DNA of 34,342 bases from Candidatus Kuenenia stuttgartensis (GTDB taxonomy: Bacteria; Planctomycetota; Planctomycetia; Planctomycetales; Planctomycetaceae), in contig CAMAVB010000056.1 in the NCBI GenBank assembly GCA_945861465.1, positions 1 through 34,342 on the forward strand. Reading direction: 5' to 3'. Positions 9,536 to 14,717 of the stretch are shown here, piece by piece (position 1 is the stretch's first letter; the number at the start of each line of letters is the position of its first letter). The notes beneath the pieces are model-generated. The model did no database searches. It was not told the origin of the DNA and saw only the letters and a list, made by a program, of their open reading frames with translations. The translations under genes were made by a program, and so were the position numbers.

Positions 9536-9835
9536 CGCCGCTGGCTGGGACACGTGGCTGACAAGTTGTTTGAAATCCGTCCCCGCAGGACGAACACCGG
9601 TATTCGTGCCCGGCTGTTGCACGGGCTTCAGGCGTGAAGTATCACCCAGTCTCAGCGTGCAAACGCCGCACGTCTTGACGAAAACATCCGGCAAACTTCC
9701 GATTCGTGAGACATTCCAGTCGCATGAATCTTCTACTTGACCAGAATCGGTGCGGAGATAGACTTCGGATGCGCGATTTGTAGCCAAGGCTACATTCAGG
9801 AAGAATGGACACGAGTTGGGTTGGGAAGAATCTTT
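9536..9835. other. Intergenic region upstream of the metal importer
   Basis: No gene is supported. A minus-strand open frame (9541-9787) has no ribosome site and no recognisable domain, and looks like a repeat (it contains the palindrome-rich stretch around 9575-9640). The 3' part holds the palindrome at 9779-9794, a candidate operator. Confidence 0.45.
9779..9794. promoter_or_regulatory. Candidate metalloregulator operator
   Basis: TGTAGCCAAGGCTACA is a palindrome with 7-base arms and a 2-base centre, ending 41 bases before the start of the metal-binding lipoprotein gene. Size, symmetry and position resemble operators bound by DtxR/MntR- or Fur-family repressors. No regulator gene stands next to it. 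The assignment is inferred from position and symmetry only. Confidence 0.4.
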
Positions 9836-10879
9836 ATGCAGACAGTTCGCTCCACAGTTTCAATGGCGTCCTGGGAGCTGTGTCGATGGTCGAACCACCA
9901 GTTGTTTGCTGTCGTGCTGTCAGTTCTGCTGTCGGGTTGTCAGAAAGCGGCAGACATCGATCCGACTTCCGAATCAGATAACGCGCAACGGATCAAAGTG
10001 CTGGCGACGGTTGGGATGGTGGCGGACCTTGTGAAGCAGATCGGTGGCGAACACACCAACGTGCAGCAGCTCATGGGTCCAGGCGTTGACCCGCATCTCT
10101 ATAAAGCCACGCGCGACGACATGCAACAGATCATGCTGGCTGACATTGTGTTTTCGAGCGGCCTCATGCTGGAAGGTCGCCTCGAAGACACGCTCAACAA
10201 AGTTGGTGAAAAGCGCCCTGTGTTCGCGATCACAAGTCGCCTGCCTCCCGAAATGCTTCTTTCGCCGGATAGTGCGGGTGGGCATCCTGATCCGCATGTG
10301 TGGATGGACGTTGCGGCCTGGAGCAGTTGCATTGATGTCATTGAGGACGCTCTGAGTGGACATGATGCAGCTCATGCAGCCGACTTCAAAGCCAACGCCG
10401 TACCCCTGCGCACACAATTGCGAGCCCTGCATGAATACGGGCTGTCCTCGATTGCCTCGATTCCGCAATCCAACCGCATTTTGGTAACTTCGCACGATGC
10501 GTTCAGTTATTTTGGACGAGCCTACGGTTTGGAAGTTGTCGGCGTGCAGGGGCTTTCCACAGAATCTGAAGCGGGCCTGCAGCGTATCAATGAACTGGTC
10601 GATCTGCTTGTGGAACGAAAAGTGGCGGCCGTGTTTGTCGAGAGCAGCGTGCCGCAGAAGAACATGCTGGCGCTGATCGACGGTGCGAAATCCCGAGGCC
10701 ACGATGTCAGAGTCGGAGGCGAACTTTTTTCCGATGCGATGGGTGCTGAGGGTTCTTACGAAGGAACCTACGTCGGGATGCTCGACCACAATATCACAAC
10801 CGTCGCACGGGCACTGGGAGGATCAGTTCCCGCAGGCGGATTGCTGGAAAAATTAGCGGCAGTTAAGGAGCGGCCATGA
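9836..10879 (+). CDS. Metal ABC transporter, substrate-binding lipoprotein (TroA/ZnuA type)
   Basis: A 347-residue solute-binding lipoprotein of the cluster A-I family for Zn or Mn uptake. The start at 9836 is preceded by GGGAAG. A lipobox LLSGC puts the lipidated Cys at about residue 35. Metal ligands are His in GVDPHLYKAT, His in DPHVWMD, His in TSHDAFSYF and Asp in GELFSDAMG. This is the three-His-one-Asp set of TroA/ZnuA; Mn-specific PsaA-like proteins have Glu in the third place. Zn or mixed Mn/Zn/Fe use is therefore possible. It is first in a four-gene operon; the next gene overlaps it by 4 bases. Confidence 0.92.
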   Translation: MQTVRSTVSMASWELCRWSNHQLFAVVLSVLLSGCQKAADIDPTSESDNAQRIKVLATVGMVADLVKQIGGEHTNVQQLMGPGVDPHLYKATRDDMQQIMLADIVFSSGLMLEGRLEDTLNKVGEKRPVFAITSRLPPEMLLSPDSAGGHPDPHVWMDVAAWSSCIDVIEDALSGHDAAHAADFKANAVPLRTQLRALHEYGLSSIASIPQSNRILVTSHDAFSYFGRAYGLEVVGVQGLSTESEAGLQRINELVDLLVERKVAAVFVESSVPQKNMLALIDGAKSRGHDVRVGGELFSDAMGAEGSYEGTYVGMLDHNITTVARALGGSVPAGGLLEKLAAVKERP

Positions 10880-11664
10880 ACGCAACTTTGCCGCTTAATG
10901 CATCTTTGCCGCTGACGGTCAATGATCTGACCGTCGCATGGCATCGCAAGCCCGTGATCTGGGATGTGGATCTTGAAGTGCAGCCGGGGCAGCTTGTCGG
11001 CGTTGTCGGACCGAACGGAGCCGGAAAGAGCACGCTGCTGAAGGCAATCATGGATCTTGTCCCCAAAGCGTCGGGACGTGTCGGGATCTTCGGACAGTCC
11101 TACCGGCAGAGTCGTCATCGAGTTGGTTATGTTCCGCAGCGAGAGAGTGTCGACTGGGATTTTCCCATCAGCGTGCTCGATGTTGTCACGATGGGGCTGT
11201 ATGGAAAAATTGGCTGGTGTATGCCGGTTCGCCGCAAGCATCGTGATATCGCGCGGCTGGCGTTGGAACAAGTGGGCATCAGTGAACTTGCGAATCGTCA
11301 GATCAGCCAGCTTTCCGGCGGTCAGCAGCAGCGCACGTTTCTGGCTCGTGCATTGGTGCAGGATGCGGATTTGTATCTGATGGATGAACCGTTTGCGGCG
11401 GTCGATGCGGCGACCGAAAAAGCCATAGTGGAGATTCTGCGCGGAATGCGGAAGGCCGGAAAAACGGCGCTGGTTATTCATCATGATCTGCCGACTGTGC
11501 CGGAGTATTTTGATTCGGTGGTCCTGCTCAACATGCGCGTCGTAGCCAGCGGCCCGACGAAGGATGTGTTCACTCGCGAAAATCTCGAACGCACTTACGG
11601 CGGTCGGTTGACGCTTCTCGACGAAGCCACCGAAGCCATGCGCCGACGGGAGCGAACACTGTGA
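10876..11664 (+). CDS. Metal ABC transporter, ATP-binding protein
   Basis: A 262-residue ATPase of the metal importer (TroB/MntB/ZnuC group). Walker A is VGPNGAGKST, the Q-loop region is GYVPQRESVDWDFP (the PQ...DW.FP pattern typical of this family), the ABC signature is LSGGQQQR, Walker B is LYLMDEPFA and the switch is VIHHDL. The start codon overlaps the stop of the binding-protein gene (ATGA), and its stop overlaps the next permease start, so translational coupling is expected. Confidence 0.95.
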   Translation: MNATLPLNASLPLTVNDLTVAWHRKPVIWDVDLEVQPGQLVGVVGPNGAGKSTLLKAIMDLVPKASGRVGIFGQSYRQSRHRVGYVPQRESVDWDFPISVLDVVTMGLYGKIGWCMPVRRKHRDIARLALEQVGISELANRQISQLSGGQQQRTFLARALVQDADLYLMDEPFAAVDAATEKAIVEILRGMRKAGKTALVIHHDLPTVPEYFDSVVLLNMRVVASGPTKDVFTRENLERTYGGRLTLLDEATEAMRRRERTL

Positions 11665-13244
11665 TTGTGTGGCTGATTCTCCTGAGTGTATTCGCCAGCG
11701 GCGTGCAGAGCGTTCCGAGCATACCTGGTTCCGCAGCTGTGGATTTCAGATTTCAGATTTCAGATTTCAAATCGCTTCCGTCGTCACTTGCGATTGCAGA
11801 ATCCCTGACCAATCGCTCAATCTCATGGCCGGAATGGGGGCAATGGAAGCGAGTTCTCCTGCTTCAGGATTATAACACGCGGGTCGTGATGACGGGGACC
11901 GGATTACTGGGCTTAGCAGCAGGCCTCGTGGGCAGTTTTACGTTGCTTCGCCGCCGCGCGCTCATGGGCGATGCGCTCAGTCATGCTACGCTGCCGGGTG
12001 TGGGGCTGGCGTTTCTCCTTGCGCCGTTTCTGGGACTCGATGGAAAATCACTGCCGGTTCTGCTGACAGGTGCGGCCTTGAGCGGCATCCTGGGAGTCCT
12101 GGCGATTCTGTATATTCGCAATCTGACACGCTTGAAAGAAGACGCGGCGCTAGGGATCGTGCTCAGCGTTTTCTTCGGGGCGGGCATCGCCATTCTGACG
12201 ATCGTACAGCAGGTTCCGTCAGGCCATGCGGCGGGACTGGAATCGTTCATCTACGGCAAGACGGCTTCGATGATTGCGAGCGATGCCCGACTCATCGCGA
12301 TCGCCGGCTCACTCGCCGTGGTCATGATCGCACTTATGTACAAGGAGCTCACGCTGCTGTGCTTCGACGAAGGTTTTGCAGCGTCGCGCGGGTATCCGGT
12401 GCTGTTCCTCGATCTGTTGCTCATGGCGCTGGTTGTCATCGTGACCATCATTGGCCTGCAGGCCGTGGGGTTGGTGCTGATGATCGCATTGCTGGTAATC
12501 CCTGCCGCAGCGGCGCGATTCTGGACGCATGACCTGAAACGCATGATGCTGATTTCATCCGGCATCGGTGGTGTCGGCGGACTCGCAGGATCGGCGATGA
12601 GCGCCGTGTTTCCAAATCTGCCGTCCGGTGCCATGATCGTGATCGTCTGCAGCAGTTTGTTTTTCTTCAGCATGCTGTTCGGCCGCTCACGCGGCGTGCT
12701 GGTTCGAATCGCGCGGCGCTGGGAACTGAATCGCAAAGTCGATCGGCAGCACCTGCTGCGGGGAATGTACGAATTGCTGGAGGCACGCGACGCGGCGCCA
12801 GGCCCGGCGGAAATCGGCGTTCCGTTATCGGAGTTGCTGGCGATGCGAACATGGTCTTCGTTTCGACTGCTGCGGCAGATCGAACGCTGTCGCCGCCAGG
12901 GTCTGCTCGGGCGTAAAGCTGACGGCGGTCTTTCGCTGACGGTCGCTGGCCTCGCGGAAGCCTCACGGCTAGCACACGAGCATCGTCTTTGGGAATTGTA
13001 TCTGATCACTCAGGCCGACGTCGCGCCGGGGCGCGTGGATCAGGCGGCAGACGCCATTGAGCACGTGCTGGAACCGGAACTCATTGCGCAACTGGAACAA
13101 CTCCTCGCTCAACAGCTGACTTCGCGCGGTGTGGTCGCCAGCCCGCATCCGCTGGAATCCTCCGCCGGGCTGCGAACGGCCGGGCTGCAAGGGGTGTCCG
13201 GGAACATTTCGCAGCCGCCCTTTTTGAAGGGGCGGATGCCATGA
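11661..13244 (+). CDS. Metal ABC transporter permease with C-terminal DtxR/MntR-like domain
   Basis: A 527-residue protein; plain permeases of this family are about 280-300. Residues 1-60 are an extension with a hydrophobic start and a segment encoded by four ATTTCAR heptamers (FRFQISDFK). Residues about 70-345 are an ABC-3 family permease with RRRALMGDALSHATLPG near its start and 8-9 hydrophobic segments. Residues about 355-500 look like a DtxR/MntR-type winged helix (VPLSELLAM, RQIERCRRQGLLGRK, LSLTVAGLAEA) followed by the dimerisation segment (EHRLWELYLI, DAIEHVLEPEL). The last 25 residues are loosely composed. The domain may let the permease sense cytoplasmic metal. Confidence 0.9.
   Translation: MIVWLILLSVFASGVQSVPSIPGSAAVDFRFQISDFKSLPSSLAIAESLTNRSISWPEWGQWKRVLLLQDYNTRVVMTGTGLLGLAAGLVGSFTLLRRRALMGDALSHATLPGVGLAFLLAPFLGLDGKSLPVLLTGAALSGILGVLAILYIRNLTRLKEDAALGIVLSVFFGAGIAILTIVQQVPSGHAAGLESFIYGKTASMIASDARLIAIAGSLAVVMIALMYKELTLLCFDEGFAASRGYPVLFLDLLLMALVVIVTIIGLQAVGLVLMIALLVIPAAAARFWTHDLKRMMLISSGIGGVGGLAGSAMSAVFPNLPSGAMIVIVCSSLFFFSMLFGRSRGVLVRIARRWELNRKVDRQHLLRGMYELLEARDAAPGPAEIGVPLSELLAMRTWSSFRLLRQIERCRRQGLLGRKADGGLSLTVAGLAEASRLAHEHRLWELYLITQADVAPGRVDQAADAIEHVLEPELIAQLEQLLAQQLTSRGVVASPHPLESSAGLRTAGLQGVSGNISQPPFLKGRMP
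11743..11770. repeat. ATTTCAG heptamer repeat inside the permease gene
   Basis: Four near-perfect heptamers (ATTTCAG three times, then ATTTCAA) lie within the N-terminal extension of the permease. The motif resembles the AT-rich core of repeat R3. It is translated as a short FRFQISDFK segment ahead of the first conserved membrane helix. Confidence 0.7.
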
Positions 13245-14566
13245 ACGAACCTGTCGGGTTGTCATGGGACTACGACGGCTGGATTGTGCTCGCCGGGATG
13301 CTGTGTGCCGTCGCCGCATCGTTGCCCGGAAATTTTCTGCTGTTGCGCCGCATGAGTCTGCTCGGTGACGCCATCAGTCATGCGATCCTGCCAGGCCTGG
13401 CCGTGGCATTTTTCGTCAGCGAAAGCCGATCCAGTCTGCCCATGTTTCTGGGAGCTGTGATTGTCGGAATTCTGACGGCACTGTTTACTGAATGGATTCG
13501 CAACTTCGGCGACGTCGATGAGGGCGCGTCGATGGGTGTCGTCTTTACGACTCTGTTCGCCATCGGACTGGTGATGATCGTGCAGGCGGCAGATCATGTC
13601 GATCTCGATCCCGGCTGCGTACTGTACGGCGCGATTGAAGCGACGCCATATGACCTGATCAAAGTCGCGGAGCTGGAAATTCCACGCGTCGTGATTGTAT
13701 TGGGCATCGTGACGGTGATCAATCTGCTGTTTGTGTTGCTGTTCTTCAAAGAACTGAAACTCAGTGCCTTTGATCCGGCGTTAGCGACGAGCATCGGATT
13801 CAGCTCGCGGTTAATGCACTATCTGCTGATGGTCATTGTGGCCGTGACGGCGGTGGCCAGTTTCGAAACGGCAGGCAACATTCTCGTAGTGGCCATGTTT
13901 GTGGTACCGCCCGCAACCGCGTTTCTGCTGACAAAACGTCTGGGGATGATGATTTTTTGCAGCACAATAATCGCAGTTCTTTCAGCTGTTTGCGGACATC
14001 TGTCGGCGGTCCTGGTGCCGCATGTCTTTGGATTTCGAAGTACCAGCACGTCAGGAATGATGGCGCTCTGTGCGGGGGCGTTGTTCTTTGTCGCGTCGCT
14101 TGTTTCGCCTCGCAACGGCGTCATCGTGCGGGTTGTGCGCCGACAAAAGCTGGCACTGCGAATTCTGTCCGAAGATCTGATTGCGTTATTGTACAGGATG
14201 GACGAACGTGCGCGAGATTGTACCGTGTCGGTCCAGAAGCTCAGTTCGATACTGCTGGCTCGCCCGTGGCTGGCGGCATGGTTGATGAACGGACACGTAC
14301 GTACGGGCCATGTGATTCCGTCAGAGACCGGGTTTCGGCTCACGGATGCGGGGCGTCACCTGGGATCGGTCCTGGTCCGTTCGCACCGCTTGTGGGAACA
14401 GTATCTGGTGTCGGAAGGCGGCGTCGCAGTGGACCGAATTCACGGTCAGGCAGAAAAACTGGAACACTTCACGAACCGCGAACTCCGCGATCGCCTGGAT
14501 GAGGTCACGGCAGCCCCATCGACCGATCCCCACGGTCGCCGAATTCCCTCTGAACGCACGAATTAG
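13241..14566 (+). CDS. Second metal ABC transporter permease with C-terminal DtxR/MntR-like domain
   Basis: A 441-residue permease that starts inside the stop of the first permease (ATGA overlap). Residues about 10-295 form the ABC-3 membrane domain with RRMSLLGDAISHAILPG and 8-9 hydrophobic segments. Residues about 305-441 again resemble DtxR/MntR: a helix-turn-helix-like section (VSVQKLSSILL), TDAGRHLGSVLVRSHRLWEQYLV, then HGQAEKLEHFTNRELRDRLDEV and DPHGRRIP, the last being a signature at the end of the DtxR dimerisation domain. Two different permeases imply a heterodimeric channel as in TroCD. It ends the operon, followed by a strong hairpin. Confidence 0.9.
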   Translation: MNEPVGLSWDYDGWIVLAGMLCAVAASLPGNFLLLRRMSLLGDAISHAILPGLAVAFFVSESRSSLPMFLGAVIVGILTALFTEWIRNFGDVDEGASMGVVFTTLFAIGLVMIVQAADHVDLDPGCVLYGAIEATPYDLIKVAELEIPRVVIVLGIVTVINLLFVLLFFKELKLSAFDPALATSIGFSSRLMHYLLMVIVAVTAVASFETAGNILVVAMFVVPPATAFLLTKRLGMMIFCSTIIAVLSAVCGHLSAVLVPHVFGFRSTSTSGMMALCAGALFFVASLVSPRNGVIVRVVRRQKLALRILSEDLIALLYRMDERARDCTVSVQKLSSILLARPWLAAWLMNGHVRTGHVIPSETGFRLTDAGRHLGSVLVRSHRLWEQYLVSEGGVAVDRIHGQAEKLEHFTNRELRDRLDEVTAAPSTDPHGRRIPSERTN

Positions 14567-14594
14567 TACTCTGTCACGGATTCATTGAATGGGT

Positions 14595-14660
14595 TGTGTG
14601 CCACTGGCTGTGCCAGTGCGCCCCTTTTGCAGGGAGCACTGGCAGAGCCAGTGGCACACA
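14595..14660. repeat. Perfect-arm hairpin, possible terminator of the metal importer operon
   Basis: The arms TGTGTGCCACTGGC and GCCAGTGGCACACA are perfect 14-base complements with a second inner pair (TGCCAGTGC / GCACTGGCA) and a short loop. It stands 28 bases after the second permease stop. There is no T-run, so it is not a classical intrinsic terminator; it is probably a dispersed palindrome that may still stop transcription or protect the mRNA end. Confidence 0.6.
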
Positions 14661-14717
14661 TCAATATACGACTGACCCAGCATTAGTACCATTTCAGGCT
14701 TGAAAAAAGGGGGCATC

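Follow-up and report, generated by a model that had tools for sequence, protein, structure and literature searches.

This analysis of a 34,342-nucleotide stretch of Candidatus Kuenenia stuttgartensis DNA (contig CAMAVB010000056.1, the window in what follows) indicated that the two permeases of one metal importer both end in a tail related to the DtxR/MntR repressors which, judged from its residues, has kept the metal-binding and dimerisation half of these regulators and has lost their sequence-specific DNA recognition pattern. We lean towards the view that these tails are MntR-derived sensors acting on the importer itself, with a separate MntR controlling transcription. The permeases and their tails are located as follows.

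11661..13244, + strand: permease 1 with C-terminal DtxR/MntR-type tail, 527 residues, GTG start
12687..13241, + strand: tail 1, 185 residues after the last membrane segment; winged-helix-like half with RSW motif, then metal/dimerisation half
13241..14566, + strand: permease 2 with C-terminal DtxR/MntR-type tail, 441 residues, ATG start
14117..14563, + strand: tail 2, 149 residues after the last membrane segment; DtxR/MntR-type domain

A sequence-only reading of the window had described permeases of 527 and 441 residues with about 150 extra residues each, and the open reading frames indeed lie exactly where it had placed them; its estimate of the extra residues suits tail 2 and is too low for tail 1. 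It had assigned them to the DtxR/MntR family, in line with the Fe_dep_repr_C profile (PF02742), which matches residues 427-483 of permease 1 (40.7 bits, E 2.5e-10) and residues 368-436 of permease 2 (68.7 bits, E 4.4e-19). Both scores exceed the Pfam cut-off of 27 bits, which rules out a chance resemblance, and these were the only two matches to the profile in the whole genome (8.2 Mb in 474 contigs). Similarity to the family was clear for tail 2 alone (E 3.7e-13 with ScaR) and weaker for tail 1 alone (best E 5.7e-5). The same reading had pointed out an RLWE(L/Q)YL helix, found here as RLWELYL and RLWEQYL, and a DPHGRRIP motif, present as it said in tail 2 only; the helix that it wrote as (A/L)EH(V/F) is there, with its first letter to be corrected, as IEHV in tail 1 and LEHF in tail 2. 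The winged-helix-like segment that it had seen is predicted in both tails, neither of which has the SH3-like third domain, unlike DtxR-type repressors.

Structure prediction bore out the kinship with MntR for tail 2 and was ambiguous past the winged helix for tail 1. AlphaFold models were built with alignments of 58 homologues (A2, tail 2) and 60 homologues (A3, tail 1). The tail 2 model reached a mean predicted local distance difference test (pLDDT) of 93.7, with a DtxR/MntR match spanning residues 13-149; its best Foldseek match was the Deinococcus manganese repressor DR2539 MntR (E 4.1e-9), and it superposed on DtxR over 135 residues at 1.9 A (Z-score 19.3), so that tail 2 is modelled as a DtxR/MntR fold. 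The tail 1 model had DtxR/MntR proteins as its top matches, with IdeR (E 6e-4, template-modelling score 0.44) and MntR (Z-score 11.1 over 89 residues), but other winged-helix families came close behind. The assignment of tail 1 as a DtxR/MntR domain thus rests on its sequence, the model being equivocal beyond the winged helix.

Predicted metal binding was kept in both tails, as suggested by the ligand positions. These were those of MntR, ScaR and DtxR, as given in PMC4805248. They were read from an alignment of 42 tail 1, 44 tail 2, 11 single-permease tail and 33 free MntR sequences, with ScaR as ruler, after removal of 9 sequences shorter than 100 residues or without the trimming motif. At positions 7, 76, 80, 99, 102, 103, 123 and 125 (ScaR/MntR numbering), tail 2 has D, H, E, E, E, H, D and H (D20, H90, E94, E113, E116, H117, D137 and H139 in its own numbering), and tail 1 has H, H, E, D, E, H, S and H, with H22, H99, E103, D122, E125, H126 and H154 as ligand-equivalent residues. 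We take H76 to be part of the second site of ScaR. Among the homologues of A2, D20, H90, E94, E116, H117, D137 and G140 were invariant and H139 was conserved in at least 90%; among those of A3, H99, E103 and E125 were invariant, and H22, D122, H126 and H154 were conserved in at least 90%. Conservation in tail 1, tail 2 and free MntR, respectively, amounted to 85, 88 and 100% for H76, 100, 88 and 100% for E80, 97, 100 and 100% for both E102 and H103, and 85, 84 and 100% for H125, in loci that had been picked for their tails (by Fe_dep_repr_C matches and a pattern including HRLWE), a selection which favours some ligand conservation. The variable positions were 99 (E, D or H) and 7 (D in tail 2; H, N or D in tail 1). 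Neither of the two outcomes that the sequence-only reading had named as refuting it, a fold unrelated to MntR or the loss of all metal-binding residues in both tails, was seen: the ligand positions are kept in both, and tail 2 is modelled with the family fold. The tryptophan at position 79, within HRLWE, was found in 97-100% of tails versus 6% of free MntRs, and is a candidate contact to the transporter.

By contrast with the ligands, the DNA-recognition features of the family seem to have been lost. The DNA-binding half, Fe_dep_repress (PF01325), was reported in neither tail at E <= 1, and nowhere in the genome, tails included, did this profile reach its cut-off. The base-contacting helix of IdeR, as described in PMC10317159, corresponds to positions 34-46 of the tail alignment. 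After thinning at 80% identity (41 tail 1, 41 tail 2 and 28 free sequences), mean information over this recognition helix was 1.71 bits in tail 1, 1.43 in tail 2 and 2.91 in free MntR, that over the four core ligands being 4.04, 4.12 and 4.32 bits. On a six-residue recognition pattern, devised after the free-MntR consensus had been seen, none of the 82 tails scored 5 or 6, versus 27 of the 28 free MntRs; both window tails scored 1 out of 6, and the two tails of one transporter have no recognition-helix sequence in common.

Substitution rates are in line with this loss. In comparisons of the window with two close relatives (L036/L128), nonsynonymous divergence in the helix-turn-helix and wing was 0.37/0.39 for tail 1 and 0.61/0.65 for tail 2, versus 0.12/0.14 and 0.17/0.16 in the metal half and 0.13-0.14 in the membrane part, synonymous divergence being at or near saturation in this comparison; in the tails of close relatives, the DNA half thus changes at 2.7-4.1 times the rate of the metal half. 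A block labelled L129 P1, which set permease 2 against permease 1, was disregarded. Free short MntRs showed the reverse order, with an identity of 0.67 in the DNA half and 0.58 in the metal half (36 pairs), and at a metal-half identity of 0.60-0.75, DNA-half identity was 0.52 in long free MntRs versus 0.33 and 0.22 in the tails. Compared with the repressors MntR, ScaR and DtxR (ScaR 3hrs, DR2539 8pvt, DtxR 2qq9), the tails are therefore alike in sequence, in the fold predicted for tail 2 and in ligand positions, but differ in being fused to permeases and in their unconserved recognition helix and wing.

Such tailed permeases recur well beyond the window: a dimerisation-domain match was found in 60 of the 61 genomes of the family sample and in 108 of the 197 genomes of the phylum sample, these matches being fusions only in part, and the named homologous loci belong nearly all to Planctomycetota (Gimesia, Thalassoglobus and Rhodopirellula, for example). 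Both permeases were in view in 102 non-duplicate operons; by the motif rule, 87 of these carry two full tails, and in 5 the motif of tail 1 is altered; these counts are conditional, the sample having been chosen for tails, so that at least one tail is present by selection. DPHG occurs in exactly one tail in 96 of these operons, in both in 3 and in neither in 3. In an unrooted metal-half tree, calculated without the DNA-binding columns, 97 tails separated fully from 34 free domains (support 0.70), a topology that a single origin of the fusion would allow.

Variants of this arrangement were also observed. In L067, L068, L069, L070 and L084, tail 2 consists of a winged helix of 82-94 residues without metal domain, and DPHG stands in tail 1. 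A single tailed permease exists at some loci outside the family; in six single-permease systems (L075, L082, L085, L087, L088 and L090), the tail is longer, at about 220-230 residues, and its additional C-terminal portion may be SH3/FeoA-like. A free protein of 346 residues encoded by L093 (8301-9338) combines the HRLWE motif typical of tails with a long additional C-terminal portion.

Transcription of the operon is probably controlled by a separate, free MntR at an upstream palindrome, as suggested by the operator and regulator sequences of related genomes. The sequence-only reading had drawn attention to this palindrome, which is real.

9779..9794, no strand: palindrome TGTAGCCAAGGCTACA, probable MntR-type operator of the operon, of an operator class recurring upstream of such operons

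It sits 42 bases 5' of the ATG of the first gene, and TGTAGCCNNGGCTACA, within 1 mismatch, is present as a single copy in the genome. It presumably resembles the MntR box of E. coli, although a search for the printed box gave no useful paper. Upstream of the binding-protein gene, TGTAGC-N4-GCTACA (at most 1 mismatch) was found in 35 of 96 non-duplicate operons (37 of 107 before removal of duplicates) and TTTTGA-N4-TCAAAA in 18 of the 96, with a chance expectation of 0.05 per operator class in the 107 raw regions (mononucleotide shuffle); 37 of the 96 had neither operator class nor a third form. Of 12 chosen genomes of the family, 10 encode a short free MntR and one more has a fragment of it where a contig ends; within the genus it is present in 16 of the 18 genomes, the two without it being the window genome and G274. 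In G242, the free MntR gene adjoins the operon in divergent orientation, with a palindrome between them. The window genome has one Fur-type regulator. Regulation of transcription by a free MntR is thus the norm, and the tails probably do something else.

This something else may be a direct control of transport. Each permease would end in a descendant of an MntR-type repressor, with metal binding and dimerisation kept and sequence-specific DNA recognition lost. The two permeases of an ABC (ATP-binding cassette) importer face each other, so the tails would come to lie next to each other on the cytoplasmic side. DtxR/MntR domains work as dimers, and tails 1 and 2 may pair like MntR subunits; the presence of DPHG in exactly one tail of most operons suits one sensing pair per transporter. 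Cytoplasmic metal would then fill the tail sites and cause a conformational change, and the filled tails would slow or stop the pump, as a feedback trans-inhibition, free MntR at the upstream palindrome forming a separate transcriptional layer. In its full form, namely an asymmetric MntR-like tail heterodimer that senses cytoplasmic Mn(II)/Fe(II) beneath the membrane and directly switches the importer off, beside an MntR operator and spread through Planctomycetota, we put this proposal forward tentatively, at somewhat less than even chances. It would share its logic, by analogy, with MetNI and ModABC, in which substrate at a paired cytoplasmic domain stops the pump; according to PMC10710835, their C-terminal domains bind the imported substrate and inhibit transport. 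Those domains are carried by the ATPase and have other folds, whereas the domains of the window are on the permeases and derive from repressors.

Other roles for the tails have to be weighed against this direct control. The sequence-only reading had offered either metal-dependent gating or membrane-tethered repression, and of the two the former is favoured here. For uncut tails to bind the operon promoter from the membrane, a repressor fold and an operator so close to the first gene are indeed in place, but the recognition pattern is lost, recognition helix and wing are unconserved, a free MntR exists in the genus alongside its operator class, and the two tails of the same transporter hold no common recognition-helix sequence, which makes tethered repression very improbable. 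The same reading considered the role of such fusions to be little known, and in this it overlooked Chlamydia trachomatis YtgC-YtgR, where, according to PMC5599777, PMC6504234 and PMC7755916, one permease of the two is fused and the fused domain is cleaved off and, with iron, binds DNA as an iron-dependent repressor. YtgC-YtgR resembles the present system in that a DtxR-type domain follows the ABC-3 permease in the same polypeptide, and in its metal operon of binding protein, ATPase and two permeases; it differs in that both permeases are fused here and the recognition pattern is missing, the chlamydial side of this comparison being known from its descriptions rather than its sequences. The permease-repressor fusion as such is already known; a double fusion with lost DNA recognition, or tails of this kind in planctomycetes, yielded no report in the open-access literature searched.

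By extension of the chlamydial case, a protease might free one or both tails, the soluble domain then dimerising, binding metal and repressing the operon. This is in line with the precedent of YtgR, cut from YtgC and repressing its own operon (PMC5599777), with the permease-repressor fusions that the same review reports from 11 phyla, with a winged helix still predicted to fold and slightly positive in both tails, and with a perfect operator in a genome where free MntR was not found. Recognition helix and wing are nevertheless degenerate in both tails throughout the sample, most genomes of the genus do have a free MntR, and tailed operons are preceded by two recurrent operator classes though the tails have no common recognition pattern, so that release appears unlikely. 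The tails might also not be switches at all, but a clamp holding the permeases together, or a relay receiving imported metal and passing it on. Metal and dimerisation features kept while DNA recognition is lost would be expected here too, and DPHG in a single tail suggests a division of labour; the two potential sites of tail 2, with a full metallosensor ligand set, exceed the need of a clamp. The observations otherwise fit this reading and a switch alike, and we regard a clamp or relay as improbable, a little less so than release.

A sensor role for the tails on the importer itself also has several observations standing against it. Tail 1 lacks the aspartate of DPHG at the corresponding position; its AlphaFold model has a mean pLDDT of 80.9, with about 60 in the dimerisation helices (residues 111-130), and unrelated MarR/HxlR winged helices match this model at a Z-score of about 10, near that of MntR. 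The conserved RSW motif, peculiar to the winged-helix half of tail 1, indicates some constraint there, and this half is more positive on average in the tails (+3.2 and +2.3) than in free MntR (+1.0), so that it may contact DNA or lipid. Five of the 102 operons have no tail on one side and another 5 have a tail 2 reduced to the winged helix, and known trans-inhibition domains are carried by the ATPase rather than the permease. Finally, free MntR, the expected operator binder, was not found in the 474 contigs of the window genome. A takeover of repression by the tails, with MntR missing here, was considered and rejected, given its presence in 16 of the 18 genomes of the genus; for the same reason, the missing MntR is more likely an assembly gap or a recent loss. 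In G245, MntR lies beside a glycosyltransferase gene, and the window genome runs on unbroken at that place without MntR, which may fit loss or another location.

The operon itself is a TroABCD-type ABC importer of a divalent transition metal. It comprises four genes on the + strand, encoding binding protein, ATPase, permease 1 and permease 2, with successive genes overlapping by 4 bases each; the first two are as follows.

9836..10879, + strand: substrate-binding lipoprotein, TroA-like (PF01297 E 1.2e-71, given from 9854)
10876..11664, + strand: importer ATPase (ABC_tran E 6.9e-31)

The ABC-3 profile (PF00950) matches residues 73-340 of permease 1 (E 1.3e-62, profile positions 5-257) and residues 15-288 of permease 2 (E 4.1e-45, profile positions 8-257), and thus covers the whole membrane part, with the PF01297 and ABC_tran genes directly upstream. 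The binding-protein open reading frame can alternatively be read from a TTG at 9737. Its product is closest to Treponema TroA (1toa, E 6.9e-70), for which reason a PsaA-like identity was dropped, and with TroA as nearest relative the binding protein does not fix the metal. The best NCBIfam matches of the ATPase were manganese/iron and manganese ABC ATPases (E 3e-67 and 8.5e-66, both under the curated cut-offs), and permease 2 retrieved in one search the manganese permease 7kyp (E 4e-30) together with MntR/ScaR chains. The likeness to Treponema TroABCD and streptococcal PsaBCA-type importers thus lies in the binding protein (TroA) and permease 2 (7kyp/7kyo), whereas the solved manganese permease chains have 282-290 residues and no tail, unlike the window permeases. 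Because the binding protein is nearest to TroA, the ATPase to manganese and manganese/iron systems and permease 2 to a manganese permease, the imported metal is most likely Mn(II), with Fe(II) and Zn(II) remaining candidates.

Repeats were observed in and around the operon. The N-terminal extension of permease 1 contains a short tandem repeat (ATTTCAG units) at 11739-11775, and a 73-bp palindromic repeat lies 3' of the operon (14592-14664), with at least 40 genome copies at 89-100% identity, each site being counted once. A second palindromic repeat family of 70-80 bp occurs at 5052-5131 of L117 and on many contigs of the window genome, with dozens of matches in the window genome to a stretch of the relative G245. 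An Rfam scan of the window gave no match.

The control of bacterial metal uptake is mostly described as transcriptional. If the proposed role of the tails is true, an importer with its own repressor-derived sensors adds a direct feedback on the pump, and this would explain the role of permease-repressor fusions outside Chlamydia. The coexistence of free repressor and fused sensor in one genus makes the two layers separable, and the metal ligands, the HRLWE tryptophan and the missing recognition helix offer clear mutants with which such a feedback could be approached.

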